Positions 2,048 to 22,616 of a stretch of DNA of 64,000 nt are shown piece after piece; position 1 is the first letter of the stretch, and every line of letters begins with the position of its first letter. The DNA is from Tubulanus polymorphus. Taxonomy: Eukaryota; Nemertea; Palaeonemertea; Tubulaniformes; Tubulanidae. Position numbers and translations under genes: made by a program. The notes under the pieces were generated by a model that had not been told where the DNA came from, made no database searches, and saw only the letters and a program-made list of their open reading frames with translations. Location of the stretch: positions 3,889,001 to 3,953,000 of the forward strand of contig NC_134031.1 of assembly GCF_964204645.1 (NCBI RefSeq). Direction: 5' to 3'.

Positions 2048-5000
2048 TCACTTCTTATCGATGAAAGCTCTGACCAGGTCAATCGGCAGCGGGAATACGA
2101 TCGTAGAATTCTTCTCAGCGGAGATAGTGTTGAGGGTTTGCAGGTAACGCAGTTGTAAGGCGGCCGGCGATTCGGCGATGACGTCGGCGGCTTCTTTCAG
2201 CGCGCGCGATGCTTTCTGTTCACCTTCGGCAGCGATAACCTACAAATTAATCGTCGACGATATACTAGAAAGAACCTCAGGGCACTTTCTTAATGAGGTG
2301 AGGGTTCACTCCTCGTAAAAAATATTTCTTTTTTATGACCGGTAAACTGAATCTCGGCATTCAGAGTTGAAACCCACAGTCCATGATTAAAACATTTTTT
2401 GGCTGTTAGTTTCGGAGTTAACACTACACTCCACCATCAGAGAAACCGAGTAACATGATTAATTATGAAACCGTCAGAAAATAAATGGTTTAACCATGGA
2501 CTGCGGGTTTTTCTTTTTTTTTTTAATGCAAGATATACTGACCTTAGCGCGAGCTTCTCTGGCAGCTTCAGCTTCTGCAGCCATAGCTCTCTGTAACTGT
2601 ACCGGCAAGCGGACATCTTTACTATAAAATAGAATTCAGCCGTTAATATACAAAGAATGTCATCATAATATCTTCGATCAAATAAGGCAGACAACACAAT
2701 TTCTGTTTCAAGTTTCTATTGGTATTGACATGTTTTCGAGATGGAAAATTCCAGAAGCTTTACAACAGCTCTGGGCTACACCTACCCAAGTTTGAAAAAA
2801 AAAAATCTTGCACATTTTCGTTTTGTCATGCGATGATATATATTGATTTGGAAGCCTTAAGTTGATCAAAAATGAATGAATGACTGAGCGCTCATCATGC
2901 CTGCACTATGGCTCGCGATTGAAAAAATGTTCCCGCAGAAAATACCTATTGTCTCTCTATTTTAGAACATGACGGTATATTTTCGACAGAATTTCATAAC
3001 AACTGCTCACGCTCAGCTTGGCAAAATGACAAACTGGATAAACAAACGACATTCCGAGCTTGTAAAAGAATACAAACATCAATACTAATCAATACAGATG
3101 AATGTGCGTCAACTGCGATGTTGATCTCTCGCCACATTGATGTGATGTGCTCTTCTGCTCGAGGGCTGAAAATATTGAGCTTTGAAGTGTCGGAAACACA
3201 TAGACAAAATAAAGGGTTAGTGGCGCCTATACGCTATATTTGATCTAACCCTGAAGTAAAACTCCTCACTTCAGCTGTGGTTATTAATGATTTGGTAACT
3301 ATTTATTACTCCACAGAGTTAATCTGTGTCTTGTTTCCAGATTTTTTAAGGTGGCCATTTTTATTTTACTATTCCTTGACGTGCATGTTGTTTTCTTTGA
3401 CTTGAGTTGCTAAGAATCCGATCAATTTACACAGTCAAATACGTAAGACATAGGTGGTAACTATTTTTGGGCGGTACCAATGTCAACAGATTTCCCTGAT
3501 TTTAGCTTTTTTACAAAATTCCCTGATTTAAAAAAAAAAGAAGAAAATTTCCTGACATTCCCTGATTTCCAAGTAAGTCGCCCCCCCCGTTTTTCTAGCT
3601 GTGTACACTAAAAGCTTAAAGCATGATGCCAATACGTATGTGTAATGGTTAACGCCAGGGATCTCAAGTTTATTATTGCCTAAGAATGTCAACGTAAAGA
3701 TTTTGTCATAATTTCACTTACATTTCGACACGTTCAACCTTCACTCCCCAGTTATCCGTAGCTTCATCAAGATTCGACTGTGGAATAAATATTAAAAAAT
3801 CAAATGAATATTGGTTACACTTTATATTCAATCCTGAAGGCTAGATTAGATTCCGAAAACAAACATTGATGATAGGAAAAAGAAGCCTATAACTTTGTGG
3901 ATGTGGGAAAGACTGTTATAACGCCATCTCTTGAATGCTTAAATCATCTCTTCGTCTCTTTATTACCTTAATATAGTCAACCACCGATATACCGCCCTCC
4001 CATATACCACCACCCCACCTACCGCACCCCACCTACTGCCAGGTGGTATATCAGGGGTTGACTGTACATGTATATACATGTGTGATGCCAAAATTTCTTG
4101 AATAAGCCAAATCTCATTCATATTCAATGAAAATAGCATTTTTCATCTATAAAGCCATGTATTGCTGCTTGGTCCCGGTGCTTGAACAGACTTTTGGCCA
4201 TAACATGTCATTTTCAGGTGATCACACTGACCTGCATCTGGTGGCTGATGTTTTCACGGTCGGACAACAGTTCACTGAGGTTCTTCATACCGAGCACGTT
4301 ACGTAATGTAGTCGCCGATAATAATCGCGTCGATCGACTCGCGTCTTCCACATTCGTTACGGACATAGTTGCGTTATAAATACGATAATAAACAACAGCA
4401 TCGACGGCGACTGTCACAGAATCTTTAGACAGAATCTGAATTTCGAATGGAATATTCGTTAACATCTCATTACTGAGGCCCAACGCGGGCAACGAAACAG
4501 GAGACGGAAACATGTTTCGGAGTGTTTCCCTGCGTTGTCTGTATTTACGACAAGAAACCTGGTTTTGGGAAACAATGTTTCTAACATCAACCATATCTGA
4601 TTCAGTGTTTCTGTTTTCATAGTGCTAACAGGGGTGGATCAAGTTTTTGGAAAGAGGGGTGAACATGAAATATTGGGACACTATTTACATAAGTTTTTGG
4701 CCCATAAAGGGTCCTCCACCAGACTAATTAGAAAAATTTGATGCATTAAGGTGGATTCTGAGCACTTTCCTGGTTGAAATTAGGAATGAAATATGGGCAC
4801 AATTTTACCAGTTTCTAAATAACTTGGGGAGGAAATTCCAAGGTCACTCCGCCGAAAAAAGGGGTGCACCCGTAGATCTGCCACTGTTTTGATACAACTT
4901 ACTTGCCTCCCAGATGCTCTAGAAGTCTTTTACTAATTTCTTCAGTATTCGTAGATTAGATAGAATTGGAAGGCAACAGAGGTAAAGGTTTCTGACCGAA

Positions 5001-8000
5001 TGAAAAGAGCATCCGTGCTACAACCTGGCACAATTTGCTTTTTATAGATTTCTCAAAAAACCATTGGTAATTCCCATAATCTTCAAATCAGACTTACCTC
5101 TTGTGGAGGTACGTCGAATGAAACGGTCCTGAGGTCGATCTTAAAGTATTGATCGGTACACGGTATGATGAAAAAGAGACCGGGTCCTTTAGCGCCTCCC
5201 GACAGCAAACGACCGAGACGGAATATGACAGCTCTTTCGTATTCTTGTACAACCTAAAAACGACATATGTAGGCGATTGCTTGGGCAGTCGGAAGTATAG
5301 TCCGGAAATAGTTCGGAAATTAAGCGCATTCGGTTATTAGTTCCGACCAGTCGACTAGATAAGAAAACCGAATTCGGCACTGGCTGCGATCAGGGGTGAG
5401 TCCAGGGGCAGACTTTGACAAGAGCACTCAGAAATTATTAAAAGGGTATATATACTGAAAAAGGGAAGTTAAGTATCCAAGCAGCCAAAACAAGGGTCTG
5501 AAAAATTTTAAAATTTCAGTGCATTTTCATACAATTTCTAGGCACTCAAGGGATATTCAAGAGAGAATATAGGCTATATCTTGCGCTGCAGACTGCTGTC
5601 TTATTAGTTGTCGATGGAAAAAGTGCACTGAAAAATATTGCATCTTCAAAATGAGCTCGGAAAATTGCGACGGGAGCACTATGCTCCTTGTGCTCCTGTC
5701 CGGATCTGACCCTGAGGCTGGAATACATATACATACCTTCAAACAGAAGGCTAAAGAGAATGGTATAGTACACAGGATGAGCAACCACGACAACGCTGTC
5801 AGGAAGTAACTACAGCATCCCATCTTTTCGTCCGTGGCTGAAATGAAAACATCGAAACATTTAGAATAACATCGTCAGGACAGCGATGATTCCGGTATAG
5901 TACACAGGATGAGCAACCACGACAACGCTGTCAGGAAGTAACTACAGCATCCCATCTTTTCGTCCGTGGCTGAAATGAAAACATCGAAACATTTAGAATA
6001 ACATCGTCAGGACAGCGATGATTCCAGCGCTCTTAACTTCCGCGCGGCCGTGAGTGGAGAGTGAAGCTATAAATAGCACATTGTAATAGCATGCTAATCA
6101 ATAGATTCACACAGCGAAGCGCTAATACTGGAAGGATTGGGTGACATTACACATTGCCAACTGCTTTTCCATTTGATGCGATAATCAAAACTACTAAACA
6201 GTAGTTTAACAAAATCAGATTAAGTTTAACGCAGCTGTAAGCCGCGATCACACGAGCATTTTTGTCCCGTGCCGAATTAAGCCAGGAACAACCATTCACA
6301 CAGGTGTCAAATAGGCGTACATTGCCAATTAGGCTGATAAAAAATATAGGACCAGGCCCGAGCCAAACTTATTGAATTGCAACTGGTTCCACAAGTGATT
6401 CACTTCGCTATGTCGTGGCCGTTTAGTATATGGTTTACATGTGAACTCGCTCCCAAGTAAGCCATGGGCCAAATTTGACTTGAGCCTGATCTGGGTTAAA
6501 TTGTCCTGCGTGATCAAAGGCTCGATGTAATTTTTTCATTTTCTATGTTGTATTATTACCCGCTAGCTGAATTTAGTTTTATATCCATATCCTCATGTGC
6601 ATGATACGCAGGCAGCGCTGGTCGCGGATTTGAAAACAAAATGTTATAAGCAAATTTTCATTGTAAGCTGAATTACGTTAATCCCATCAAACTTCGATTC
6701 AGAGATACCTACATCATCTGATAGAATCTGCCGGACAAAAAGCGGACCGGCATAGCACTAGCTTACCTTTGAGAAATATTTCAAGTCAAATAAAAAAAAA
6801 ACTGTTTTACATTCCTACGGACTGAAAAGCATTCCTTTTACAAATCGATGTGATCATTTTTTTCGAACTCAGTATAGATAGATAATGAAACAGTTCTAAC
6901 AATAAACCCAATTTACCGGAACTCCCGTATGTCGCCTCAGAGCTGGAATGTCAAATCCCGGATGTCAACTCTATACCGTGTAACTAATATTGGTCGCGTT
7001 ACAGAGCAGGCGTAAATTTACCTACAAAACATTGACTACCTCCATCTAAACACCATCGTCACTTTGTTTGAGAAAAATTTCAACTGTCATCAAGCAAAAT
7101 TAGTGAAATGATCTTTTCTATCTTAACCCATAAACATTGATCTCTAATGTAATGATTGATCTCAGTGCATCACCCCTGCCATCAGTATCCACCATACTAT
7201 GCATTATTGACCGGCTACGATGATATCTACTCGTCCTTCTCATTCACTTTCACAATTCATACCTTCTATCGACAAACTGTTACTCGGACGATCGGCGATT
7301 TTTGAATGCGAACTTTCATCATCATCGCGCTGCTGCTGCTGTGTATATATCATATTCCTGCTACCGTTTTCGATCACAGACGCTTGCATGATTACAAATC
7401 GGCGCACACACTGCCGAGCAGTGACAGTGTATCGGTTACGCCGATGCTATACATACCCATACGACGATGACGGAGAGGCAGAGAGAGTGTGAGGAGAGAG
7501 AGGCAGAGCAGAAAGAGACGTTAAGAGACCTGCCACCATCCACTCTACATGCATATTCCCGATAATGAGAGTGGATGGCGTTAACCAACGCTATTCGGAA
7601 TAACAGATTTGGAATAACGGATAGCTGGGGATGCTGCAGAAATCGATGCTAAATTTCTAGATACTGTCCATAGTTATCAGGTTTACTTTTGACTAGGAAT
7701 TAGGAATTATGAATTCACTTACGCTCCAACCCTTTCCATGGTATATAGAGCGAGACTATATACAATATTTACAAAACAACAGAAAATATAAACTCTTAAC
7801 AAAATATAACAAAGTTATTAACAATACATAGATACACTATCTAAAATATAATAATTCAATGATCTATACAAATCTAAGCCTATTTTGATGAATTTAGCTA
7901 ACCGGGTTGTTAGAGTTCAAGACTATCAAGGTTTCCAAAAGTAAAGTACAAGCTAATAAAACTAATTCATCACCTAAAATATTACAAAATGATTCTATCT

Positions 8001-8942
8001 AACTGAAGGTTTGATAATCTATTCGCAGGTAAAAGATAAGACTCAATCCAAAAATTTGAATTAACTGATTACTTAATCATCTGATTGTGTCATGCAACGC
8101 CCCCTGATGAACATACTCAGAAACAGATGACATTGAAACGCGGCACGAGTTACACGTCAACGTGTAACAGCTGAGCAATTTTTAGCTGAAAAGCGAAGTG
8201 AAAATACGCTTTTGCCACTCAACTATTCAATATGAAAATTCTAAAAAATAACCATATGAAATGAGATGGGAAACAGTCAGATATTTCAATACGTACGAAA
8301 ATTGCGTAAGGTTCTACCATACATGTACTTCAAACGTTGGCACTTTTACAAATTTGATCTCGTGGGCGGACTATTGTATTCGCTATGGGCTCGAATTCTA
8401 CTGTCTCAAGATGAATTAGTAGATCGCAATATGCATGACGAAATGACAAATGTAAATTCCAACAATTGTTGCCGGGCTTTTTTAGACTGAAGAAAGGTAG
8501 TTCCCCGAAATAATTCTAGTATTTTCAGATAAACTTATTAAACTCAACAGTTGTGGGATTTGACATTTCTTTTCCAAGTCTAAAATTGACGCCTAGATTT
8601 TGTTGATTTGGATGTTTTGACTACCGTATGATACAACAGTTATCAAAAGCAAACAGTTAGGATAATAAAACAGCCCGTAAACTACATAAAAATCCGATAA
8701 AATGTAAAAATTGTATCTATCCAGAACGAACTTCCTACAAAGTATTTTTTATCACGATTCAGTCGTTCTCGTGAAAAAAAGACAATCAAAACACTTCAAA
8801 AATTTAAAAAAAAAATACCAACAAACCTACCATCTTCTAAATCATCTTTATTTTTTGACTTGAACGTCGTTGATGGGCCCGGATCGGCGTAGCCACCATC
8901 ATCTCGATTATTATGATAAGCGGGACCGACTTTTGATTCCAT
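2048..8942 (-). CDS. STOM: Stomatin (band 7 / PHB-domain membrane protein), seven-exon form
   Basis: Integral membrane scaffold that inserts from the cytoplasmic side as a hairpin and oligomerises to organise cholesterol-rich membrane and modulate ion channels. Exons, in transcript order: 8942-8831, 5837-5737, 5253-5098, 4435-4232, 3777-3722, 2621-2543, 2239-2048; they sum to 900 nt (299 aa; vertebrate stomatin is about 288). All junctions are GT-AG and phases agree. Residues 1-37 are a variable acidic tail. Then come an M-G-C-C palmitoylation-like motif (about 43-46), a hydrophobic hairpin with the conserved proline (T-I-P), and the PHB domain with [11 protein letters not shown] and [11 protein letters not shown]. 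The C-terminal helix carries [10 protein letters not shown] and the end has [13 protein letters not shown] and N-S-T-I-V-F-P-L-P. The family is certain; stomatin versus a MEC-2/STOML3-like paralogue is less so. Confidence 0.93.
3345..3590. repeat. Dispersed repeat, copy also at 30790-31045
   Basis: The two stretches share CACAGTCAAATACGTAAGAC, the block TTTTTTACAAAATTCCC, and a final CCTGATTTCCA-GTAAGT near GTGGCGCC or TCGCCCC. Both lie in introns and look like decayed copies of one transposon family without coding sequence. Confidence 0.55.
3972..4066. mobile_element. Short MITE of the same family (family 1, copy 1)
   Basis: Ends read AGTCAACCACCGATATACCG and, on the other side, the inverted GGTATATCAGGGGTTGACTG, flanked by TA. 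It lies in the stomatin intron between exons 3777-3722 and 4435-4232. It is shorter and more diverged than the copy at 11567-11769. Confidence 0.6.
5762..6025. repeat. 132-bp tandem duplication covering most of stomatin common exon 2
   Basis: Unit 5762-5893 is repeated, apparently without change, at 5894-6025. The unit contains the acceptor and the first 76 bases of the exon 5737-5837, plus part of the upstream intron. The second copy lacks the end of the exon and its donor. If its acceptor (5970-5971) were used, translation would run T-I-P-E-S-S-L-S and stop, so only the copy at 5737-5837 makes full-length stomatin. Confidence 0.9.
6026..8830. other. Stomatin intron, no further gene seen
   Basis: Non-coding intron sequence between the common exons and the form-a first exon. 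It holds one copy of the AGCCGCGATCACAC-type repeat (about 6240-6524). The open frames at 7220-7492 and 8266-8490 are unsupported by splice sites or similarity. Confidence 0.6.
6240..6524. mobile_element. Repeat with GCCGCGATCACAC end and GGCCAAATTTGGC words (family 3, copy 1)
   Basis: Begins GCCGCGATCACACGAGC and ends near TGCGTGATCAAAGGCTC, a decayed inverted end. The interior contains several words of the type CGGGCC, AAATTTG and GCCTGATCTG found in all copies. Relatives: 17446-17725, 19795-19995 and 34421-34650. Confidence 0.6.
8831..8942 (-). CDS. Stomatin first coding exon, nearest alternative (form a)
   Basis: Starts at the ATG at 8942-8940 and ends at a GTAGGT donor at 8830-8825. It encodes 37 residues plus one base (phase 1). 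Joined to the common exon at 5837, that base completes an alanine codon and leads into T-D-E-K-M-G-C-C. The tail is polar and acidic, ending D-D-L-E-D. It is one of seven candidate first exons and the closest to the common exons. Confidence 0.82.
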
Positions 8943-9335
8943 GTCGATGAATTCGCGATCACGACAACGATATCCTCAAAAATACGACGCGGTTTTTTAA
9001 ATATTCTATCGCTCTTTCCGAACGCCAATGCTCGTCCCCGAGACCGACCGACGAGGAGCTCCGTCGTTACACTAACTATATAAAACAACAGGGAACTCCA
9101 TATATGTATAATTCTAATTATCCAATGAGGCTTTAATCCACGTAGGTACAAATGATACACAACCTGTTGTGGTCATTATTACCTCTACATCATCAATTAT
9201 CATACACAACAATAGCGCACTGTATCATCAACTGCTGGTTACCAGCAATCAATGGAATAGTTTGTGCATAGCTTAACAGTGGTGTCGCAATAATGCGCAG
9301 ACCGTATCCGTTGTGGTGCTGTAACCAGTATGGAC

Positions 9336-10357
9336 ATCTATATACTCGCGTGCCATATTTTCTAAAAGATGGATTCATCAAGCGGAATGAGCTCGATGAG
9401 AGAAAAGATAAATTAGGGGCCATCCGATGAAGTTTGTGCCTAAGAAGATTTGTACGGAAGTCTATGAAAAAGCTTGGGAAGGAGGAGAGGTCGATGGACC
9501 TAGAGACTTAGTCGAACTGGACCAAGACCCACCCCCCACCCCCCCCACCGGGGCTGGCTGAGGGACAGTGTGTACTAATAATGATAATATATAAGTGTAG
9601 TTTAAGTATATTACGAAAAAGTTTATGTTTGCTTATGGAGAAAGGTGAGGTTGATGGACATTGAGACTACATTGAGAAAATCACAGAAATTACAAACAGT
9701 TTGGGGAATGAACATGAGCCCCCTCCCTAGACCAGGCTGGGGACAGCGTACTAATTTATCAAGTAGGATTGTCTTTATTTTTATGAACTCTAAATAAACA
9801 CATCACACATTTGTGCTTGAATATAATCTAAAATTCAGAATTACGCCACAGGATTTTTCGAAAGTTGAAATGAGATCATATTCAAAAAATAAAACGTTCG
9901 TTTGATGAAGGCATCATTTGAAGGTTTGTATCGGAAAGTCTAAATCGCGAACGGAACATACAGCAGTATGAAAAATGTCTAATGAAAACATACTGAACTT
10001 TTAAAACATTTATTACTACCGGTACGCAACTGGAATGTCTTACGGAAATTGCATCTAAACATTTCATGTTAGATCGGTCGAGTTTTAAATGTCCCTAATC
10101 CCCACAAGGAAAAATAAATATGCGCCATTTTGTTAGCAAGTTATCTGCAGATTTCAGATATAAGATTTTTCTGAACGTTGAATGCAATAAATAACCATAT
10201 TGTTGTTCTCATAATCTATAATGAATGACTCAATGGAATACCAGGGATGCCCATACATCTACATACTTGCGTGCCATATTTTCTAAAAGATTGATTCATC
10301 AAGCGGAATGAGCTTGATGAGAGATGAAGAGAAATTAGGGGCAATTCGATGAAGTTT
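9336..10357. repeat. Direct duplicate of a ~100-bp segment in a stomatin intron
   Basis: About 9336-9433 and 10256-10357 share a near-identical stretch containing CGTGCCATATTTTCTAAAAG and the sequence around GATTCATCAAGCGGAATGAG. Between them, 9465-9585 and 9630-9755 are a second looser pair (gagaggtcgatgga, C-rich run, ggctgg, gtactaat). No coding potential is evident; this is a decayed local duplication or transposon remnant. Confidence 0.6.
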
Positions 10358-11566
10358 GATACTTAATAAATGCAACATCAGATGAGAATACAGAACTAAT
10401 AGTGACCACACCCGATTAAACATCAGTACTTGACACAAGACTTACGTTTCTACTAATCAAACTCCAGACACCCATCAAGATCTGCATGGGTGAGTTGGGT
10501 GTAACTATGATAGGTTATGAAATTTATAATACGCGCTCGAGAAAGCAGCTTCTTAAACCTAGTTCTGTGAAATATTCATATTCAGTGCACATAATTTAGC
10601 AAACAATTCCAGACAATTTTAAATAAACCTTTTTCAAATTTTTGATAACAAAAACTGCGCAAAGAAATTCAGAAACGCGAGAAAACAAACACTACCACCA
10701 TAAAATGAAAATTTTGCTAAATACTTTTATTCGCACCGGCACCAAAACAAAAACAAAAACGTTCCTTCTAATTTCCCCACCAAAACATATATCAACGCAA
10801 CGAAACAAATATTGAGGGTGAGAAAACAAAAATTTGTTTTCTCAAAATAAAATTTTTTTTTGCGGTCAAAAAAATCCGGCATGGCCCGAATGAGCCACCA
10901 TAAATAATCAATTGTCTATGGAAATATTTGGCTTTGCAGGTTTAACCAAGCATTGACAATGGGAATGTCCTTAACATAAATGAATTGACATACTTTATAG
11001 GATCATAAACTTAACTAAGCTTCCTTTATTTTCAATGACTAGGTTCGTACATCAATATAATTTAGGTTCCTGCTTATAATAATGAAAGCAAATTTTTCTC
11101 TTTCAAAACTTAACGATTCCACATGGAAGTAATCTATTTTCTCCCTCCCCTGAGCATAAAAGGACAGTTCTGCCGAGACTATATAACATATAAATAATTT
11201 ACTGATTTTATGTAACGAGCTATGAATGAATAAACTAGGTTTAGCCGAATGAATGCCTCTTGAATATAGGACAAACTGTATCAGTTTGCTTTAGTTGTTC
11301 TTAGTTCCGATAGCTGAACGAGAAATCGATAACGACAGAACTGTTTATTCATTTGTCCGCGAGATAACATATGATTCGATTGATCGACCGACCGATCGTA
11401 ACAATGATCATCGTCGCCGTATCAACATCCATTTATTATTCGCGCGACGACGAATAAAATACGTACGTAAGGAAAGTAAGGAAAATCGATTTCGTTTCGG
11501 ATAACGATTAGATCAGGTCACGAAAATAGTTCACAGACGCGAAACCAATAGATATCCAAATGACAA

Positions 11567-11769
11567 TACAGTCAACCCCCGATATACCACTTACATCGGT
11601 GCAGAACGATTTTGGCGGTATACAAAGTGTGGCTGTATATCGGGGGTATTTTTGCTACGTATTTGTATAGATTTGCTACGTATTTGTATAGAGATGTATG
11701 TTGAGAAAACCTGGCGGTAGGCGGCAGTGGCGGTATATGGAAGGGCGGTATATCGGGGGTTGACTGTAT
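11567..11769. mobile_element. MITE with ~20-bp inverted ends, TA-flanked (family 1, copy 2)
   Basis: Terminal inverted repeats CAGTCAACCCCCGATATACC face each other, with TA on both sides, which suggests a mariner/Tc1-type non-autonomous element. Internal sequence has no coding potential. A shorter relative lies at 3972-4066. Confidence 0.7.
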
Positions 11770-12370
11770 ATAGGCATATAGGCTCTACTACTTGAGGCAG
11801 ATCCATTTGAATTGGATATCTATTAAACAACAACATTTTCAATGCCATATTTGAAGTCATCAGTGGAGATATTCATATCTTTAATCTCTTATTTATTTGA
11901 CTGGTAATTATCAAAACTGTTGCGATTAGATTTCGTTTCGATTCGTTTTGATTACGAACCCACCACACCTGCCGGGTACGAAACGGAGCGCTAGATTTGG
12001 AAATCGGAAACCGAAGTACAAAATCTATATTCTTGACCCAAAAAAAGGATCAGACACCTTGCACTGAATTTCATGATTCCCTTTTAGGAACATGCCACCC
12101 CCTCCACCCAACAAGTGATGAATTCTGGTAACGCCAACAAATTACTAGTACTGAATAGATATTACACTGATAATTATAAGGATTTGTAGGAGCTTACATA
12201 CTGCATGTATGGCGTATACAACAATGATCCCGATAAAGAATTGGCAAAATATTTGTCGTTATTATTGATTTTCCGTTTATGCAATAACACGAACAGGATA
12301 TTTCTATTTGAGTTCGGAGCGTATCAATACACCACCCGTGTGGAGGCATCGGTACTACCACTCCGCCTAC

Positions 12371-12700
12371 CTGTACCAAAACTAAACCCACTTCTTGCCC
12401 TAACAAAGGAACATAATTTCTGAACGCTCCCCTACAATTCCTATATACTACAAAGAGAAAGCCTTACTTCGAGATGCATCGTCGATGTGATCTCCCGTAT
12501 AATGAGAAGTCGAAGTGGAAGTCTTCACTGGTTACTCCTGTACCAAAATCTAAACCCAACTCCCTCCCCTAACAGTTCCGAACGCCCTCTAACATGAATT
12601 CAAATATACTACGAATAGAAAGCCTTACTTCGAGTTGCATCGTCGATGTGATCTCCCGTATAATGAGAAGTTGAAGTAGAAGGCTTCACTGGGTTCCCTT
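12371..12700 (-). repeat. Degenerate tandem duplication (~165 bp) copying part of a stomatin first exon
   Basis: Two units, about 12371-12536 and 12537-12700, share the C-T-G-T-A-C-C-A-A-A-A start, the pyrimidine-rich middle and the exon end with its GTAAGG donor. The copy at 12468-12537 keeps the 3' part of the exon (S-T-S-T-S-H-Y-T-G-D-H-I-D-D-A-S-R) and a good donor at 12467-12462. It has no in-frame ATG and has an in-frame TAA just upstream, so on its own it looks like a dead exon copy. Confidence 0.7.
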
Positions 12701-12740
12701 GCTTATCCATCGGGTAAATACGTTCTCTACTGTCTGACAT
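12629..12740 (-). CDS. Candidate alternative first coding exon of stomatin (form b)
   Basis: Begins at ATG 12740-12738 (M-S-D-S-R-E-R-I-Y-P) and ends at a GTAAGG donor at 12628-12623, leaving one base (phase 1), so it splices in frame to the common exon at 5837 and reads on as T-T-D-E-K. It codes for 37 residues rich in Ser, Thr and Asp, ending H-I-D-D-A-T-R. It has exactly the same length (112 nt) as the exon at 8831-8942, but no clear sequence similarity to it. A partial duplicate lies immediately downstream in transcript terms (12468-12537). Confidence 0.68.
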
Positions 12741-13124
12741 GACGCACTAAAATTGCCGGTGCTCGAATATCACACTCTATTCGTACGCTATTTACGACCT
12801 GTTTACCGGCAGCCCTTAGCGCGTTATCTGTCATATGACTTTTAATCATATGCAAATGCGTCGTTATGCTGCATATTTCAATCGAACACACGTAAAATCA
12901 TTTAGCATGAAGGCAAACTAATACCATGAATAACGGTCGGTTTATTTTTGTTTCTGCGTGTGATCAACACGACTGAACACTCTGATTGGCTACGCGTCTG
13001 TCACTACATATCCTGTTTTAGTCCTGTATAGAATAGCAATAGGCCGTTGATATATACCGGTTATGCAATTTGTCAGAAAACCGAAAAAATATATGGAGGC
13101 AAATAACAATTGTCGTTCACTTAC

Positions 13125-13224
13125 ATTTCAATAGGTCATCGTCCTTATTATCATCGAGCATTAATACATCGTCACGGCCAGAATTGACCGCCGTTAAGCC
13201 GAAATCTGCATCCGTATTTTCCAT
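13125..13224 (-). CDS. Candidate alternative first coding exon of stomatin (form c)
   Basis: ATG at 13224-13222 (M-E-N-T-D-A-D-F-G) followed by 33 codons plus one base, ending at a consensus GTAAGT donor at 13124-13119. Phase 1 matches the common exon at 5837, giving L-L-K-S-T-D-E-K at the junction. The reading frame stays open upstream to another ATG at 13305 (M-I-C-K-I-S-L-K), so the tail could be longer. The peptide is acidic (D-D-N-K-D-D-D). Confidence 0.58.
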
Positions 13225-13575
13225 AGTCTCCTTAAAATTCTGGAGTTTACTTCCTTTACTCTTTAAGACTTTACGTCGCGTTTTTAAACTTATCTTACAT
13301 ATCACATGACTAGGGTAGCATATTTCGATTGAAGTCGATGACTTATCTACAGTTTGATTTCGCTTTTTTTTAACCTGACACTACAGTGCTTGCAACACAA
13401 TCTAAGTGTGGACCAGCTCACAAAGCTGAGTTTTCAGGTTAGTTTTCGCGTGGTTACCCCCTTATCCCGGAAAGGTAGATCCGATTTTTTCGGGACGCTA
13501 TAGGCGTATAGGCGGGTGCACCGGCAACTAGTGAAGCCCCTCGATCTGACCCTGCCGCATACTTTACAGCATCTA

Positions 13576-14042
13576 AAGCCTAGCGCACATCGACACTGCG
13601 ATTGGAGACAACTAGTTGCCAGGTAGTTTTCGGCGCATGAGAGCAACTGGCTGGATACAATCAGTTGCTCGAATTTGTCGATGTGAGCGAGCTTACGACT
13701 GGTTAGCGTCCATCTATCTCCAGTTCCACCCAGTTGCTCATGTTCTACTTTTGAGCAACTAGTTGTACTCAGTTGCTCTCATATCCGTCGATGTGAGCGC
13801 TCCATATTCAAAAACACATGGTTGTAACTGACTAAAACAAAGCGATTTGTCACGTGACTTGTGATACCCTCAAGAATATTTGCTAAACCACATCTCAGTT
13901 GCTGTCGATGTGTGCGCTATGGACCTAGCGACTGGCATGAGCCACGCAGTTGCTGGTTTTTACTAAATTTTCGATGTGCGCGGGGTACTCGCTCACTAAC
14001 AACTAGTTGTCTCCAGTCGCTTTGTCGATGTGCGCTAGGCTT
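13576..14042. mobile_element. ~467-bp foldback element with long inverted ends
   Basis: The left end (AAGCCTAGCGCACATCGACA, then a block ending in ACAACTAGTTG at about 13576-13618) is mirrored at about 13999-14042. The interior carries many copies of CAGTTGCT / AACTAGTTG and GTCGATGTG-type words in both orientations. There is no coding potential; the open frames that cross it are incidental. Confidence 0.65.
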
Positions 14043-14356
14043 AACTCATCAGTTGTCTCTCCAGAATACCGATGATACTTGTTAGAGGATTGCCATCGAT
14101 TCGATCAATAACACCAAGCACGGATCTATAGGCATGGACATATTTCTATTCCACGCTGTATATTTCATCTGTGCGCGTGCTAGAACAAAAACCCCTCCAG
14201 ATTAAGAAGCAATGAACGAGTCCCAGAGTCAATCTCAAGAGGTAAAGAAATACCAAAGAACAGTCAGTCGAAGATCAAAGATTTGAACCGATGAACCCAT
14301 AATCGATGGCCGACGAGTGACCGCTTGACTACTGGTTAAAAAACGTTTTTACTCAC

Positions 14357-14414
14357 ATTTCTGCAGATCGTCATAATTGCTTTTTGAGTTCGACACAATA
14401 TTTGACATTTCCAT
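14357..14414 (-). CDS. Candidate short alternative first coding exon of stomatin (form d)
   Basis: ATG at 14414-14412, 19 codons plus one base (M-E-M-S-N-I-V-S-N-S-K-S-N-Y-D-D-L-Q-K), then a GTGAGT donor at 14356-14351. Phase 1 again matches the common exon at 5837. A second in-frame ATG lies two codons in. Being short, this exon is supported mainly by its donor, its phase and its position within the array. Confidence 0.5.
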
Positions 14415-15310
14415 GATGATTTGATTCGATGTATCGAGAACATAGATCTACGTTATATTCAACATTTGCCGAACAGAACTTCCTGTTCATTTTTTATCGT
14501 TATATGATTTCATTCCTTTAATCTTCAATTCAGTTTTAGGACATGAATTAATACATGTCAACAAATAAATCAATATCAATGGGCACAATTTAATTCATTT
14601 AATCTCCATATCAGTCCTATGATACATTTAATGAGTCGTTAAATGTCTGAAATAAATCAATATCAATGGGCATTGAAATGGGTTTTTCTGTGGCATCTGG
14701 GATTCCTCCCGGAGAAGACAGGTTCCCTTTTGTAGTTAACGCTTCAAATTCGCTTACGAGAAATCAAAATTTATCCCCACGCATATTTGATAAGTGTAAG
14801 AGACGATTTAGGCAATAATAAATATATTTCGTCATGATTTACCGGTATTTAGAAATGCTTGTAAAACTTTAACGCATAAGCATCTGCCAACATACGCATG
14901 ATCAGCCATGAATCCTGGTTATCGAATTCAAATTCTAAAGCAATCAAATCAGAATTTAGCTAAACAGATTTTGTCGAATTCAAATATGCGATCAGAAGAT
15001 TTTGCAAGATCAAAACTCAACATTTCGATTCCGTTTTCCATTTAAGCCGCTTTAGGGCTCCTAATGAAGGGTCCAGATGTCTCATGCGTGGAACTACCTT
15101 TCGAAAGGAGACAATCATACATTTCTACTCATTCAGACTATCAAAATATTACGACTTAGGTGATTTTCCTAATTGAGAAAATCTTTTCTCTGAACATTTC
15201 CTTTAAATTAAGCATCTATCCAACTTATGGATACTGACTGAGAAATCGGCGACTGGTTGCCGACTCCTTACGACGCTCGGTTGGACCTTACGCGACCCGA
15301 ATCAGGCTTT

Positions 15311-15593
15311 AACCCTTTCAGTGCTGACTAATTAATACCCTATAGTGCTGGAGATAATTTGAAAATTTTTAAAAATTCCACTCTAGTGTGTTGAATAACG
15401 GGAATACCACTATAATGGATCTACACCACGGCGCGGTGTATCATTAGTTACTAGTATTTCACTATGTCTGACAAGTGCTGCCATCTTTCAAGGGAGATAA
15501 TTACTAATTACATTAATACACATAGTGCGGTGTACTAGCAAAATCTATCACTGATTTATACACCGCACTGCGGTGTAGATGCACTGAAAGGGA
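15311..15593. mobile_element. MITE with AACCCTTTCAGTG ends (family 2, copy 1)
   Basis: Starts AACCCTTTCAGTGCTGAC and ends in the inverted GCACTGAAAGGGAT. Internally it has small palindromes around ACACCGCACTGCGGTGTA. The left side reads TTAA-CCC, hinting at a piggyBac-type TTAA target, though the right edge has decayed. Related copies are at 35178-35470 and, inverted, at 45021-45302. Confidence 0.75.
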
Positions 15594-15718
15594 TAAGCCG
15601 ATAGCCAAACACAGCAAGAAACAACAACGAAACGCGAAAAACATTAGTGTTTCAACGATTCATTCGGCCGCCAAATTTTACAAAATGAGAGGACAACGTT
15701 ATACACATTATAGCCTAC

Positions 15719-15842
15719 CATCGTGAGCGTCGTCTACGGCTCGTTTGCCGTCGGCGGACGCGCGTTGGCGCGATAAATCAGCCGTCGGAGCGCCTCCGTT
15801 CACCGCGCTCGCGTCCGGAACGTTCGAATCGGTTTCGCTCAT
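15719..15842 (-). CDS. Candidate alternative first coding exon of stomatin (form e)
   Basis: ATG at 15842-15840 in an A-A-G-ATG-A context, 41 codons plus one base, GTAGGC donor at 15718-15713 (phase 1, completing Ala before T-D-E-K). The exon is notably CpG- and GC-rich compared with the AT-rich flanks, like the other coding exons here. The tail is Ala/Asp/Ser-rich and ends A-V-D-D-A-H-D. The frame is open upstream to an ATG at 15902; the inner ATG is preferred for length and context. Confidence 0.68.
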
Positions 15843-17095
15843 CTTTAATCTAAGGTGTTTTACTCGCCGGAATAACGAACGACGATCTCGTCTCACGTAC
15901 AACGCGTTATATAATGGTGTCTAGCGAGAGCGCGTGCGATGTGAACTCAAGGATGTTCGGTACCAGAGGCAGCTGCGACTGATTCTACGGTGATCTGGGT
16001 GTGGTGTCGTATATACGCGCCCCACCCCTTTTCAATTACGCCCGCCGGCAATTAAAGCGAGCAGAAACACGAACGATCAATCGCTCGAGTCTCGAAATCG
16101 ACAATTCATCTATTATGACGGTTTTCCATTTAAATTTTAAATATTAATTGCAAAATTATTATTATTACCATTTTTACGTTCTCTGTCTCCCACGAGAGAG
16201 AGTTGTCTAATCATGTACGAGGCCAGTTAGCAGCAGTAGCAGCGACGGCGGTGACGTGCCTCGTTTGAAATTTTCAACTGCCACGCCCGGTTAAAATTAG
16301 AAAATTACCTCATTTCATAAATTTCGTCTCAGCCTACTGAATATGCAACAAAAATATTTACTTATCGGCTTATTTCTTTTAAAGAACGCATACGCCCTCC
16401 AGTTACAGCTCTGAGGGCCCAGAGAAAGGGGGGCGGGGGTTTGTCTTCCTCAAATATGTGAATTTTCAATTAACATGTAATTGATCATTATTATTTTTTT
16501 GACGCTGTATAAACTGTTATAATAATCTTCATATACATTTATTACTACGTGTTATTTAAGGGAGTTTGGTGTGAGGCGATGTGCACTTCATCAAGATTGG
16601 CTAACATAACTTTAATGATCCTTCATATCATATAATTTATATCATAATAATTATCGTCAACAATATTAAGCAATATATGTATTATTTTTGAGGCGTCAAC
16701 AAACTTTCAAGTTAGTTTTTTTGTTTATATATATTTATATATATAGTTATGTTTATATATTTGAGAAATAAATAAATCAATCGATCAATCAATTCATTGA
16801 TTCATTCATTGTTGTTATAACTAGTTGTTATAACCGAAGTGTTTTTAACGAATGAAGTTCAACTGTATCATCAGGGAGAGAGGTATCCTCCCCATCATCT
16901 AAATAAAAGTGAAATAGCCCTGGCAATAATGGCCCACGTAACTTTCGAGCCCACCACTACCAATTTTCTAACATGAAAAAACCCTAAAATAAACTGTACT
17001 TCTTATTTCGATCAAAATCAGGCCATTCAGACTATTAAATATTTTTCTGTCGATTAAGCGCTTGGTTAAAAAAACCTAAAACAGTTAAGACGTAC

Positions 17096-17348
17096 TATCA
17101 GCCGCGTCGTCTTTATGGCGTGGTCTTTCGTTGGTTGACTCGTATTCCGGAGGAGGCTGTTGCGGGGGAGGCCGCTTCGGAGGATCCGCGTCCGAATTCG
17201 CTGATGTTTCGGGTCGACCCGACGAATTCGTATTCAAATCGGTACGCTGTCTCCATTGACCCGGCGTCTCGTAATGGGCGGGATTACCCGCCGTCCCGTC
17301 TGGTTGAAACTGTTCCATGTCTTCGTGTCCGATCTTATGTCCGTACAT
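17096..17348 (-). CDS. Candidate alternative first coding exon of stomatin, long proline-rich tail with PPxY (form f)
   Basis: ATG at 17348-17346 (M-Y-G-H-K-I-G-H-E-D-M-E-Q-F), 84 codons plus one base, then a GTACGT donor at 17095-17090; phase 1 gives D-T-T-D-E-K on joining to the common exon at 5837. Residues about 57-69 are a proline run that ends P-P-P-E-Y, a PPxY motif of the type bound by WW domains. The tail ends in charged H-K-D-D-A-A-D. The second methionine, at residue 11, could also be the start. GC-rich relative to its surroundings. Confidence 0.68.
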
Positions 17349-17445
17349 TTAACGCGATGACGATAACTAGTCCCAGATCTACGGTGGAAAATGAAAAAAA
17401 AGAAAGAAATAGACATTCGTTACCCGTCTGACGCGCGAATCAATA

Positions 17446-17725
17446 GCAGCGATCACACGGAGACGATTTTGCCCGGGCAAACTTGGCACGGATCAGGCTC
17501 GGGCCAAATTTGGCCCGCGCCTAATTAGAGAGCGCATTCACACGCAAACCATTCCCTCGATACTCAGCAATGCTAAAACAAAGCGAAGTGGATCATTTCC
17601 GGTGCCAGTCAAACGCAATCATTTGTCTGGTGCTAAAATTTGGCTTGGGCCCATTTGGCACCCGTGTGAACATTTGTTCCGGGCCAAATTTGGCCTGGGC
17701 CAAAAACGCTTGTGTGATCGCGGCT
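17446..17725. mobile_element. MITE with GCGATCACAC ends (family 3, best-preserved copy)
   Basis: Left end GCAGCGATCACACGGAGACG and right end TTGTGTGATCGCGGCT are inverted repeats. The interior is built of GGGCCAAATTTGGCCCG-like palindromic words. It lies directly upstream (in transcript sense) of stomatin first exon f. Confidence 0.7.
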
Positions 17726-19794
17726 AATATTAATAGCATCATGCGACTATCCACTGACTAGATTTTCAGACAAGTCTACGAAATGGAATATGTTCTTAGA
17801 AGCCTGATACAAAATAAGCCATCTTCGCATGAGTTCCGGTGGAGAAAAATTTTCAAGGCCTTCGCCCAGAGTGGTCTCCAAAATTGCAATGTCGTGTTAT
17901 TTGTTTTTGATTGATTAATGATTAATTTCTTCAAAAATCTTTTGATTTTTATTTTCTGAACTTATCATCGATCCTCCACGTCGTGTCTGAAGTGGAGCTA
18001 TTCTACCAATGTCCCAGCTATTCGAGTAGGTGAAAAAATAAACAATTCATTTACAAGTTATTATAAAAAACAGTTATTATTCATCATAATATTTTATGCC
18101 ACAATTAGACCCTATTAACGAATTATTTCAATTCTACTATTTCCAAAAATGATCGGTTGCTAGGGTGTTAGGTAGATAAATGAAAGGTAATCTTACTACA
18201 CAAAATCTTTTCAAGCCAATTAAAGACTTAGGTATTTGAAAATGAAAATTTTCTAAAGAATCAAAAATTTCGAAAAACAAATCTAAGCGCGACTTTGGAA
18301 ATATTCACTAATTTCAAAGATAGCCTTACCAGTTGAGGTGATCGATTCCCCGCGCAGAATGAGTATAGAAGTATACTGCGAGTGCACGTATTCAAACCGG
18401 CAAACCAGTTGGCATTACCAGTACGTAGTATAAAAACATATACACAGCGCAATGGGACATTGTGTGACGACTGAGCTAGACAACAGCACCGTCACAATAC
18501 GACAGAATAAGCGTCCGAGTCCAATCATAATGCCATTAGAACGAAATAATGCGTATTTATTGATATTCATTATGTTGGCGTTGGTTTTGGTTGATTGAAT
18601 TTTAAAAACCGGGTTGCCATTAGCGTCGCTAAAAACAAGAAATCTAATTTGAACTATTTACTGGTTCGAGTTCTACTTATAAATACGAAGAATACACTAG
18701 GGCTAAAAAAGGATACAAATATTATAGCACCTTCTTTATGAACTCGAATCGCTATTGAGTGATTTTAGACTTATATAATATATATATATATCTTTCATTC
18801 AGGTCAAATCCTATGATTAATGGAAATATCATAAACAGTAAAAACTCTCTGTATAGTGAACGCCAGTGGTACCGAGCTAAAAGTGTTTACTATTCTGTGT
18901 GTTCACTGTTCACTACTATAGGGAGGTACTGATGTATGTTTTTTAGATATAGCTTTCCATAGCCATAGCTTTTCCTAGGCCAGGAAAAAATTCATATGGA
19001 ATGACTATTTCCATTAGTAAACGTGACAACACCCGTGAAGACCACATCAAAAGGACCTCAAACAGGGGCGGGTCGTGGATCCAAGGGGTTTAAGCGGCCC
19101 TTTTTGCAAGCATCATCTTTTCATTACTTTTTGATACTTAATCACTGTTCAAAAGATGCTAGGAAATCTCTTCTAGAGGGCCTTTAGTTCAACATTTTCT
19201 TGGGGAGGATCTTCAGAGACCCCTGCAAAAATGCTTCATGCCGTTGACGCTCTTGTTGTACAAGGCACATAGCCAGTAAATTTATAAATAAGGCCACCCT
19301 ATATGAAATTCCTAGATCCCGCTGATAAAGGGTGAAAAATCAATCACTTTTGCTCTTTATTTTTGTAGAGCGTGATGATACTGCCAAAACATGCATATCC
19401 AAAAGTTCACAGGGATACGGGAACGATCAGCTTCGCGGAAAACGCATTTAAAACCACTCAGAATTCTCGCCGGGGACATACAGCGGTTTTCATGCATCGC
19501 GCACTCCGGCAGTGACAGCAAACCAAACAACTCACTAAATCGTTGCCATGGTTACAGCCACAGAATCAACGTCGTCGTCGTGGCGATGTGTTTATCATCG
19601 ATAAATCCGACGACCCTGGATTCCGCCAAAAATGTCACCATCTATAAATATCGTCATTCCCAAGGTTAATCGATACCGTTAGTGATCTAGTGTAGAGATG
19701 CGCACTCGGGGATGATCGCAGTTATCCATACGTGCATGCTTCATTTCATCGACCATCAACACTTCCGTCTATACCGACCGGTACACGCTTTTAT

Positions 19795-19995
19795 TAGCCG
19801 CGATCGCAATTTATGGCCTGAGCCAATTTAGGCCCGGAACAACTGAAAACACTGGTGTCACAGGCATGGGCCCATGCCTGGATCAAATAATTGCATATGA
19901 ATTTCAACTGGGTCGGAAATGACTCAAACGCGCTCTTTAATCACGGGCCAAATTTGACTCGGGCCTGATCTGCGCCAGGTCAAATCGTCTCTGGG
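19795..19995. mobile_element. Family 3 MITE copy, one end eroded
   Basis: Begins TTAGCCGCGATCGCAA and carries the family words GGCCTGAGCC, GGGCCAAATTTGACTCGGG and CTGATCTGCGCC. The right inverted end is not clear. Confidence 0.5.
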
Positions 19996-21540
19996 GCACT
20001 CAAGTGCCATCTGATGGCATCGAAATTTCAAAAATTTTCCAAATCCTTTAATTTCAGCTTCCTCTACATCGTTAGCTCTGTGTGGAATGACAACACTACG
20101 CCATTTTCGTCTCCAAGTGCCTTCTCCTGGATCTGCCCCTAGTATCTGTTCAGAGAACTTTCATACGCCACCTGGCCCTTTTGATTCTTAAATAAGATCA
20201 AATATCACTGCATCTTACTCGTTCATTACCCAGCGATCTATGTATGATATATATAGCAGGAGTATAGATTTAAAATGGCTACCCGTACCGGCATCCACCT
20301 CGTCTGAGGCTTTTGAAAAAAATTGATAACTTGTTTCTCATTTCATTATCTACCCCGTACATAACTTTTTTTTTTCAAATCAGGACCAAACTTATCATAA
20401 CAGACACCCGGCAGCTGTAGAAATGAACTGATAGCAAATCTTATTGCAGTTTACTAAACTCGCCGATTAGGAGAAACTAGGCATCAGTAGAAGAGGTAGT
20501 ACTCCAAAGTAGAAGAGATCCGGTTTTGACCTCCTGCCCCATGGTTGTGTTGGTGGTAAGCTTGCATAAAGTGGTAAGCTTGACGTGCACAGGATTTTCT
20601 TCAAAAATCAAATAAAATTTGTAAAAGCCTTTTCAGCTAAATATTTCGAAAAGGCGCCCATTTTTGAATGGTGAGGCAGTCAAATTGGATCATTCTCGAC
20701 CCCGTGCTTATGCCTCTAAGGTGCCCCTCATCCATTTTTCGTGATATTTGCCCTATCTGAGCAGAAGCATGTTTTGCCTGTCAAACTTGAAGTTCCTAAA
20801 ATTTGCTTTAAAAATTACTCACTATAGATTAAAAAGGGGATTCAATCGCACACCCCTTGAAACCCCTGCGTTCAGCCATGCCCGAATAATTAGGTAGGCT
20901 TATAGCAAGCAGTAAACTTAGAGCCCGCTAAAGCCCCACTAATAATTGTAGTAGCATTTGATTACCGACATGCATTAAGAATCCTCACCGCTTATCTACC
21001 CTTGAAAACGACCCTGGATATCTTATAAATAGCAGAGATCATTGACTCACTAAACGAAAATAGATCGTTCTACCTCCGCTGCATTACAGTAATAAACTTA
21101 ACACGTAAAAATATACATAATACTACAGAAATACATCTCATAGGCTAACAATGTATGTACAAACGATGGTAGGCCAGTGTGCATGCATCCCCGATGAGCC
21201 ACACAGGGCGCACACACCTCGCCGATTTTGTAACAAAACATTTTTTGGAAAACGTGTTATGAAAGTTCCGTCTGGAAGCATCTAAATCCATTGAATTCTC
21301 CAGGGAAATGGCTCCAGAAGCCATGCATAACACCTGACTTGTACGTTATATAGTTTGAAAACTGCGGTTTCTGTAAACGATGCCCCCCTTCCAAAAAGGC
21401 TGACAGGAATACACTTTCACATGGTTGATGAAATGCTTGATTTAATTTAAGTCATACAGGTCATGCAAGTTGCCAAGTAGCCGAGAACTGGCTGGGTGCA
21501 GTCGAGGATTCATTAAAAACATCAAACATCTCTTTGTGCT

Positions 21541-21706
21541 ACAGTAAACCTTGCCCTACTCGGACACGGCCAACTCGGACTTCCGACTTACTCGCGCAAA
21601 AACGAAATCATTTTTGTGAATTCCTAACGTATTTTCCTATCCTTAACTTGGACTTTGTTTACCACGGACCAATTTTGCTGGTTTGTCCGAGATGGGCAAG
21701 GTTTAC
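21541..21706. mobile_element. MITE with ACAGTAAACCTTGCC ends (family 4, copy 1)
   Basis: Left end ACAGTAAACCTTGCCCTACT and inverted right end GATGGGCAAGGTTTACC, with TA at the left border. The interior has ACTCGGAC words. The second copy is at 42145-42321. Confidence 0.65.
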
Positions 21707-22085
21707 CAGCCAGTACCAATAGGGGGAAATCGTGAAATGAATACCGTATTCTTAATTTCACTGAAGCGCTACAAATGATTCCAATCACTGTGTCCACTGA
21801 CATTACTGGGCAACAGTTAAATATTGCCAATCATTGGCGAGAATGGTATCAATGTCTGACTTAAGGCTAGTCTAGTATCTAGCTGCTGTTCATCAGACAA
21901 GTTGCAGGGGGGCCGCGTAAACTTCTGGTATTCAGACTAACTTAAGGCAATTGTGATCTCAAAGATTCATGGATTTAGATTAGAAGCAACTTCCAAATTT
22001 GTCACCATCTTCAGCTCGCTCAAAGAGTCGTCTCAAGGCAATGAAAAAGAGCATTCATTGGTCTCAGCAACCACACGGGCCCGAC

Positions 22086-22145
22086 CCTAAAAGTTTTTGA
22101 CCCCAGTATCCTAGGTACTATATACTGGGGTCAAAAACTTTTTGT
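22086..22145. repeat. Hairpin with 21-bp perfect arms
   Basis: Arms 22089-22109 and 22122-22142 are perfect inverted repeats containing GTTTTTGACCCCAGTAT, with a 12-base loop. Weaker pairing continues outward (GGGCCCGACC against GTCAGGCTCC). Confidence 0.8.
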
Positions 22146-22217
22146 GTCAGGCTCCTGTGTTAGCAACGGTAAATTCAGATCGAGCGCAAGTCAGAAAAAC
22201 AGCATCAGAAAAATAGC

Positions 22218-22388
22218 CATCCCGGCCACAACACAAGGACTTGTATCAGAGTTGTAGGTAAAAACGATAATCTGTTAATCCAATGTCTGTTATCTTATAT
22301 ATGCCATAGACATTGGATTAACAGATTATCGTTTTTGTATTACCAGTTGGTACATACAACTCTGATACGAGCCGCTGTGATCCCGGCT
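22218..22388. repeat. Long palindrome (29-bp perfect core arms, extended imperfect arms)
   Basis: Core arms 22260-22288 and 22308-22336 match perfectly (AACGATAATCTGTTAATCC and complement) around a loop of about 19 bases. Pairing extends outward through GTATCAGAGTTGT / ACAACTCTGATAC to CCCGGCC / GATCCCGGC, giving arms of roughly 70 bases. This is probably a foldback transposon, 140 bases from stomatin first exon g. Confidence 0.8.
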
Positions 22389-22528
22389 TGAAATTTTGGA
22401 GGGCAAATGATTTTGACGCGTGCCACTCTGTCGATTGTCTGCGTAGATGAGGATGAAAGTAAGGTATTGCACGATATAAAAAGTGGAGGGCAAGTTAATA
22501 CAGTTAAATAGAGTTTTTCGATTTTTAC

Positions 22529-22616
22529 CTGCACCGGATTCATCAGAAGGCGCCGCATCATCTTGACCAACTCTATGAAAACTAGTACCCCCACGATCTT
22601 TTGCACCATCAGCCAT
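22529..22616 (-). CDS. Candidate most distal alternative first coding exon of stomatin (form g)
   Basis: ATG at 22616-22614 (M-A-D-G-A-K-D-R-G-G-T), 29 codons plus one base, GTAAAA donor at 22528-22523. Phase 1, so it also reads into A-T-D-E-K of the common exon at 5837. No other minus-strand acceptor exon is evident between it and stomatin, and the next gene upstream on this strand ends at 24218. The assignment rests on phase, strand, acidic character and position. It could instead belong to a small unrecognised gene. Confidence 0.45.

Follow-up and report, generated by a model that had tools for sequence, protein, structure and literature searches.

The question raised by this locus is whether one stomatin gene can be served by a whole set of alternative first exons. 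A first-pass annotation of the window, a stretch of 64,000 nucleotides from the nemertean Tubulanus polymorphus, proposed seven minus-strand exons, each with an ATG, an open frame and a GT donor in phase 1, all fitting one acceptor. All seven are present where they had been placed and have these properties, and all seven read without interruption through exon 2, which starts at 5837, to the stomatin stop. We think it likely that this is a variable-first-exon array on a single stomatin gene, and that the array probably comprises six to eight interchangeable first exons. The features are listed in Table 1, and exons are referred to below by their lower coordinate.

Table 1. Features of the stomatin locus (positions in the window; register, Asp-Asp at the common distance from the donor; o/e, observed over expected)
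Feature	Position	Strand	Remarks
Core exon 7 and stop codon	2048..2239	-	
Core exon 6	2543..2621	-	
Core exon 5	3722..3777	-	
Core exon 4	4232..4435	-	Part of SPFH/Band_7 domain
Core exon 3	5098..5253	-	
Common exon 2	5737..5837	-	Start of shared core and membrane hairpin (TDEKMGCC...); acceptor CATTTCAG, donor GTATGT; aligns with human stomatin
Tandem copy of acceptor and exon 2 start	5894..6025	-	132 nt, 100%, upstream of 5762-5893
Probable eighth first exon	7263..7389	-	ATG, open, phase 1; donor GTATGA, 7.9; in frame with core; ends NSLSIE, DDD inside
Alternative first exon	8831..8942	-	Ends KDDLED; shared register; donor GTAGGT; CpG o/e 2.01 at ATG
Relic	12436..12540	-	Partial copy of 3' part of exon 12629 with donor; no ATG, in-frame stop; 89% over 105 nt
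Alternative first exon	12629..12740	-	Ends IDDATR; shared register; donor GTAAGG; codon score below 0
Alternative first exon	13125..13224	-	Ends DDDLLK; shared register; donor GTAAGT
Alternative first exon, 19 codons	14357..14414	-	Ends YDDLQK; shared register; donor GTGAGT
Alternative first exon	15719..15842	-	Ends VDDAHD; shared register; donor GTAGGC; CpG o/e 1.82 at ATG
Alternative first coding exon, 84 codons	17096..17348	-	Ends KDDAAD; shared register; donor GTACGT, weakest (3.6)
Candidate alternative first exon, farthest from core	22529..22616	-	MADGAKDRGG...DESGA; ATG, open, phase 1; donor GTAAAA, 7.6

The core has an SPFH domain (Band_7 matches) following a membrane hairpin, and is strongly similar to a solved stomatin: hairpin, SPFH domain and C-terminus align with human stomatin (STOM; 9oh9_A) over 256 residues, E 1.8e-122. 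The alignment, over residues 4-259, takes in the common part from its residue 4 onward, which supports the earlier proposal that the isoforms would be distinguished solely by the N-terminal tail preceding the hairpin. The common acceptor AG is at 5838-5839, and splicing to the upstream copy of the exon 2 start would lead to an early stop.

With regard to the number of exons, there is probably a further first exon, 7263, which the first-pass annotation overlooked and which likewise translates through to the stomatin stop. The locus thus has seven to eight ATG-bearing exons in tandem, in frame and upstream of one common set. As alternative first exons of one stomatin gene, six of the original seven are well supported by phase, open frames, the register described below and the lack of any intervening Pfam domain. 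The case is weaker for 22529, in which Asp-Asp is present but outside the register, the codon score is below 0 and there is no CpG rise, and we treat it as a weaker member of the array.

The exons were said mostly to end in acidic residues. As worded this is loose, as only three of the seven have a final Asp, but in six of the seven (8831, 12629, 13125, 14357, 15719 and 17096) Asp-Asp-(Leu/Ala)-x-x stands at one fixed distance from the donor. Of the full eight, 22529 and 7263 are without this register. It occurs in 6/24 phase-1 candidates of the region and in none of 570 controls (Fisher 2e-9, with nested candidates not independent). The controls take in the remainder of the window on both strands, and no further exon with the register was found among them. 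In 200 order-3 Markov simulations the count was never above 1. The motif was spotted on the same exons that it supports, and post hoc choice is allowed for in a draw test, in which any dipeptide recurred six times at one register in 0/20,000 control draws and five times in 7. At the nucleotide level GAYGAYN10GTRNG has 8 matches in the window (both strands) against 0.63 expected, and 7 of these are in the array, one in each of the six exons and one in the relic. If the donor is relaxed to GT plus purine, the Asp-Asp pattern is also found elsewhere three times on the minus and five times on the plus strand, and a variant with T at the second base of the next codon matches 5 times, of which 3 fall within the array, against 0.90 expected. 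Open frames running from ATG to a phase-1 GT are common, with 24 (some nested) on the minus strand of the region against 15.8 +/- 4.5 in 200 simulations, the largest of which gave 35. The features used in the first-pass annotation would thus be unconvincing alone, and it is the shared register that lifts the array above chance.

The register could in principle be an RNA signal, such as a splicing enhancer formed by GAYGAY near the donor, rather than a protein motif, and the exons could still be alternative first exons in that case. Such a role would suit the constant spacing between GAYGAY and donor that six exons and the relic show, and repeats of this kind can serve as exonic enhancers. However the motif codons differ silently, with Asp as GAT or GAC, Leu as TTA, CTA or CTG and Ala as GCA, GCT or GCG. 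Variation at third positions, with Leu retained through different codons, points to selection on the protein, and we consider an RNA signal rather unlikely.

It is also unlikely that use is confined to one to three of the exons, with the rest being copies of an ancestral first exon that have decayed, or are decaying, and have kept frame and donor by chance. There is indeed a clear relic of one exon, which a protein search also recovered (83% over residues 14-37), two exons are outside the register and the donor of 17096 is weak. However decay would be expected to break frames, as it has in the relic, while six exons have kept ATG, open frame, phase and the motif with its silent variation. Further, a repeat search (at least 25 nt) gave no similarity between the listed exons other than the relic pair, so they are not recent copies. 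As to a possible common ancestry of the first exons, six are alike in their last codons and there is one partial duplicate, with other similarity not seen. Four of the eight exons were searched singly against the genome, and for none was a second copy found: 8831, 15719 and 17096 gave no other match, and 12629 returned the relic. A DNA search with 8700-17500 was swamped by one repeat, with 40 of 5428 candidates scored.

That the exons are parts of other genes lying within the intron is very improbable, as all are in the phase of the stomatin acceptor and continue stop-free into the core, and a six-frame Pfam scan of 6031-22900, blind to genes that lack a Pfam domain or have very short exons, gave no match. 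Farther upstream on the same strand, at 26.7-43.9 kb, DUF4456 and DUF4455 pieces mark a gene that is presumably CCDC180-like. That the first-pass annotation selected frames which run open to a GT by chance is favoured by the abundance of such frames but can scarcely be credited given the control counts and draws for the register, an argument that does not extend to 22529 and 7263.

In the array that we favour, a tandem series of six first exons would span 8.5 kb (8831-17348) ahead of six common exons, and two more would probably extend it to 15 kb. Each first exon would bring its own start codon, in a transcript that probably has a promoter to itself, and the donor of the exon would be joined to the acceptor at 5838, with the remaining first exons left within the intron and so omitted. 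As all donors lie one base into a codon, all isoforms would be in frame. The products would have the hairpin, SPFH domain and C-terminus in common and vary in a net acidic cytosolic tail of 19-84 residues, which may in turn give them different partners or locations and, as the first-pass annotation proposed, might set the choice of partner or channel by tissue. Six of the tails would share the nearly constant end DD[L/A]xx-[A/S/T]-TDEKMGCC, probably a common juxtamembrane element. The array has probably grown by local duplication of exon ends together with their donors.

Variable first exons typically have no acceptor and are for that reason skipped when unused, and the proposal of separate promoters leaned on the statement that none of the seven has an acceptor-like partner. 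That statement is not upheld by the scores. Using generic donor and acceptor matrices, to which all splice-site scores are relative, the six acceptors of the gene itself score only -0.5 to 3.4, and four of the seven exons have a site within 200 nt upstream of the ATG that is at least as good as the weakest of these (17096, 4.5; 8831, 1.9; 22529, 0.4; 15719, -0.1). The site of 17096 is 30 nt upstream of the ATG and in the top 1.1% of 890 AGs. Only 12629, 13125 and 14357 are clearly without one, with no site above -1.7 in that interval. Such sites are common, as the median best score in random 200-nt windows is 1.6, and five of the seven exons are below it. It may be that transcripts of 17096, and also of 8831, 15719 and 22529, start farther upstream. 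Separate promoters have indirect support from the raised CpG o/e at the seven ATGs taken together (1.48 against 1.09, P 0.0035), and each first exon may have its own. There is no such rise at 22616, and CpG is also high at 11.1-11.5 kb, where no usable frame with a donor was seen on inspection. The donor of 17096 scores well below the other six (7.2-8.0), and only five of the seven ATGs have a purine at -3. Codon usage gives side evidence only, as the model is weak (known genes score -0.26 to 0.28 when left out): 15719 scores best of 93 candidates in the region and the top three of the 93 by total score are all exons of the first-pass annotation, with 8831 and 14357 near 0 and 12629 and 22529 below it.

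The layout is familiar from a few other genes and looks unusual for a stomatin gene; to our knowledge there is no first-exon array in human STOM. A literature search on stomatin first exons and promoters, with most subscription journals outside its scope, gave only mec-2 papers as relevant; PMC11335299 was considered, but concerns a scramblase. In the case of C. elegans mec-2, also one stomatin-family gene with the SPFH part common to its isoforms, 17 isoforms are predicted, of which Q, M, K, H and D have first exons not contained in a rescuing clone. Only seven of the 17 were amplified, together with two new ones (passages of PMC12284166). As a precedent for variant N-termini mec-2 thus stands with regard to isoforms with other first exons, and is limited by that number. 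It differs in that the functional differences reported are at the C-terminal end, and a shared tail register is not mentioned in the available passages (PMC12284166, PMC10035767, PMC8934639). The kind of arrangement is thus known, and what appears new is the number of exons and the shared end of the tails. The vertebrate UGT1, GCNT2 and protocadherin clusters are described, in the passages available, as tandem variable first exons joined to common exons, with relics in UGT1 and birth-and-death evolution (PMC1885805), and UGT1 as having a promoter before each first exon (PMC3325998). The tandem placing upstream of a common set is the same here at sequence level, as is the presence of a relic as in UGT1. 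However in UGT1 the variable exons closely resemble one another and each encode a whole N-terminal domain, while those of the stomatin array encode short tails alike only at the last residues. This bears on how arrays of variable first exons grow.

The second stomatin gene of the genome (C7:8641294-8678904) also has its acceptor in phase 1 at the equivalent position, ahead of DEN...GLGCCGW, but of 33 phase-1 candidates over 40 kb upward from its exon 2, including one within that exon, none has Asp-Asp in the last 15 residues.

Members of the stomatin family have roles in touch, olfaction and kidney filtration and are linked with channels, and it is an open question how a single core can serve many partners. 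A set of natural tails on one core, varying only ahead of the hairpin, would allow tail function to be tested directly. We suggest, tentatively and as a possibility that may well prove wrong, a code like that of protocadherins or UGT1, in which six to eight promoters would select tails that route one scaffold to different membrane domains or channels, the fixed DD[L/A]xx next to the hairpin would be a common coupling part, and the set would have evolved by exon-end duplication. The seven tails are hydrophilic relative to controls (P 3e-5). They also look disordered.

The common part of the stomatin gene is complete in six exons on the minus strand, at 2.0-5.8 kb (see table), and its protein, from its own residue 4 onward, matches solved human stomatin with an E value of 1.8e-122. 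The first-pass annotation had proposed that seven minus-strand exons upstream, each open from an ATG to a GT donor one base into a codon (phase 1), feed this core. All seven are present as described, and in each the frame continues across the one acceptor, at 5838, as far as the stop codon of stomatin. An eighth exon of the same form, 7263-7389 (minus strand), had been overlooked. Read back from the ATG, the frame of each of the eight meets a stop at a distance of 0 to 156 nt.

Exons of the stomatin core and candidate first exons with the Asp pair in register
Feature	Position	Strand	Splice sites or exon end
Common exon 2	5737-5837	-	AG acceptor, GT donor
Core exon 3	5098-5253	-	AG acceptor, GT donor
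Core exon 4	4232-4435	-	AG acceptor, GT donor
Core exon 5	3722-3777	-	AG acceptor, GT donor
Core exon 6	2543-2621	-	AG acceptor, GT donor
Core exon 7, last	2048-2239	-	AG acceptor
First exon	8831-8942	-	KDDLED + one base
First exon	12629-12740	-	IDDATR + one base
First exon	13125-13224	-	DDDLLK + one base
First exon	14357-14414	-	YDDLQK + one base
First exon	15719-15842	-	VDDAHD + one base
First exon	17096-17348	-	KDDAAD + one base

Frames that open at an ATG and reach an acceptably scoring GT are frequent. The minus strand of the array region holds 24 such phase-1 candidates, some of them nested, against 15.8 +/- 4.5 in 200 order-3 Markov simulations, and the form of the exons alone is therefore not decisive. 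What decides against chance is a common register at the exon ends, an Asp pair (DD) at a fixed distance from the donor, which had been glimpsed only faintly before. Six of the 24 targets have it, against 0 of 570 controls (Fisher 2e-9, with some targets nested and so not independent); the controls came from the plus strand of the region in three phases and, on both strands, from the rest of the window and 40 kb around exon 2 of a paralogue, with the region's own minus strand left out in phases 0 and 2. With DD allowed anywhere in the last 15 residues the counts are 8/24 and 9/570. Because the motif was picked post hoc, we also drew sets of 24 controls and scored every dipeptide at each of 12 registers: none of 20,000 draws had one common to six candidates, and seven had one common to five at one register. 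At the nucleotide level GAYGAYN10GTRNG has 8 matches in the 64 kb on both strands, with 0.63 expected and 0 of 100 shuffles reaching 8, and seven of them lie inside the array, being the six exons and a relic of one. Relaxing the donor to GT plus purine gives 10 minus-strand matches, of which 3 fall outside the array, and 5 plus-strand matches.

The codons within the motif vary silently (Asp GAT/GAC, Leu TTA/CTA/CTG, Ala GCA/GCT/GCG), a pattern that favours selection on the residues over recent copies or a signal in the RNA alone. At the level of sequence, both the anatomy of the array and the constraint on it are demonstrated. The remaining two exons, 22529-22616 (DD out of register, negative codon score, no CpG rise) and 7263-7389 (DDD at a larger distance from the donor), have open frames in phase and good donors, and are probably also first exons.

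We infer that the array is used in RNA as separate transcripts, each of which would have its own promoter and first coding exon, with every first exon spliced to the common acceptor and the unchosen ones skipped and left inside the intron. What varies is a tail, acidic and hydrophilic, ahead of the membrane hairpin; it presumably faces the cytosol, as in the stomatin family generally, and the tails may differ in function. There is also an ATG at 5821-5823, inside common exon 2, encoding MGCCSYF. A start there, if used, would give a tail-less isoform opening Met-Gly-Cys-Cys, which we take to be a possible lipidation signal.

With regard to upstream acceptors, said earlier to be lacking, we scanned up to 200 nt before each ATG with a generic matrix, on which the gene's six true acceptors range from -0.5 to 3.4, the top value belonging to the duplicated one, and random 200-nt windows have a median best score of 1.6. 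The lack is clear for 12629 (-1.7), 13125 (-1.9) and 14357 (-5.2), but not for 8831 (1.9), 22529 (0.4), 7263 (0.3) or 15719 (-0.1), and least of all for 17096, with a site of 4.5 at 30 nt before the ATG, in the top 1.1% of 890 AGs. These exons, most of all 17096, may be preceded by an untranslated exon, a possibility that leaves the coding anatomy untouched but weakens the case for one promoter per exon. Around the seven ATGs (401 bp each) the mean CpG o/e is 1.48, compared with 1.09 for random positions within the region (P 0.0035), peaking at 8942 (2.01) and 15842 (1.82) and falling to 1.01 at 22616; G+C is also slightly up (P 0.036). Other starts gave 1.41 (an arrestin-domain gene), 1.33 (the presumed CCDC180-like start) and 0.86 and 0.87 (two GPCR genes). 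As the windows include coding sequence, which may contribute, the rise is only suggestive of separate promoters. A further CpG-rich stretch, 11100-11500 (28 CpG in 400 bp, o/e 2.02), in which no first exon was found, is perhaps a promoter or an untranslated exon.

The relic (12436-12540, minus strand) is a 105-nt copy, 89% identical, of the end and donor of the 12629 exon, 161 nt downstream of it; it has no ATG, has an in-frame stop and looks like the remains of a local duplication. Apart from it, the four of the eight exons searched as protein had no other match in the genome (animal-type, 267.8 Mb, 77 contigs). An exact 132-nt tandem duplication (5762-6025) takes in the end of the intron, its acceptor and most of exon 2; the upstream copy offers a second acceptor, leading to an early stop if spliced. 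The duplication either arose very recently or is an error of assembly. Between two exons, touching neither, is a repeat of about 470 bp (13573-14044) with 43-nt inverted ends and at least 39 further genome copies at 95-98% identity (40 of 5428 candidates scored), which we take to be an apparently recently active non-autonomous transposon. Nested inverted repeats at 22067-22379, with arms of 43, 29 and 34 nt, those of 29 nt being 100% complementary, lie close to 22529-22616 on its downstream side.

The window covers C7:3889001-3953000, and the genome's second stomatin, at C7:8641294-8678904, likewise carries a phase-1 acceptor in the equivalent position. None of 33 phase-1 candidates in 40 kb there (one within exon 2) shows DD among its last 15 residues, and so such an array is apparently not general among this genome's stomatins.

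We file the array with the variable-first-exon kind already known from other genes; the UGT1 and protocadherin clusters are precedents for its organisation, and UGT1 clusters likewise hold relics (PMC1885805). The nearest precedent is C. elegans mec-2, of the stomatin family, with 17 isoforms predicted, five variants whose first exons are outside the clone used, and seven isoforms amplified plus two new ones (PMC12284166); the functional differences reported in the accessible parts are C-terminal (PMC12284166, PMC8934639, PMC10035767). Among the literature matches listed for stomatin first exons, promoters and isoforms, which cover few subscription papers, none reports such an array, and for a stomatin gene its length and fixed exon-end motif look unusual.

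Six-frame searches of 6031-22900 found no Pfam family between the core and the next gene, although a gene without Pfam domains would escape them. That gene, upstream of the array on the minus strand, has pieces of DUF4456 and DUF4455 between 26.7 and 43.9 kb (three Pfam matches, of which 43626-43883 is under the curated cut-off) and is presumably CCDC180-like; the frames at 24.2 and 45.3 kb, taken as its ends, matched no family. Beyond it on the plus strand is a tandem pair of single-exon receptor genes, 47272-48315, the one scanned, which is rhodopsin-type, and 51185-52219, with translations near-identical by eye.
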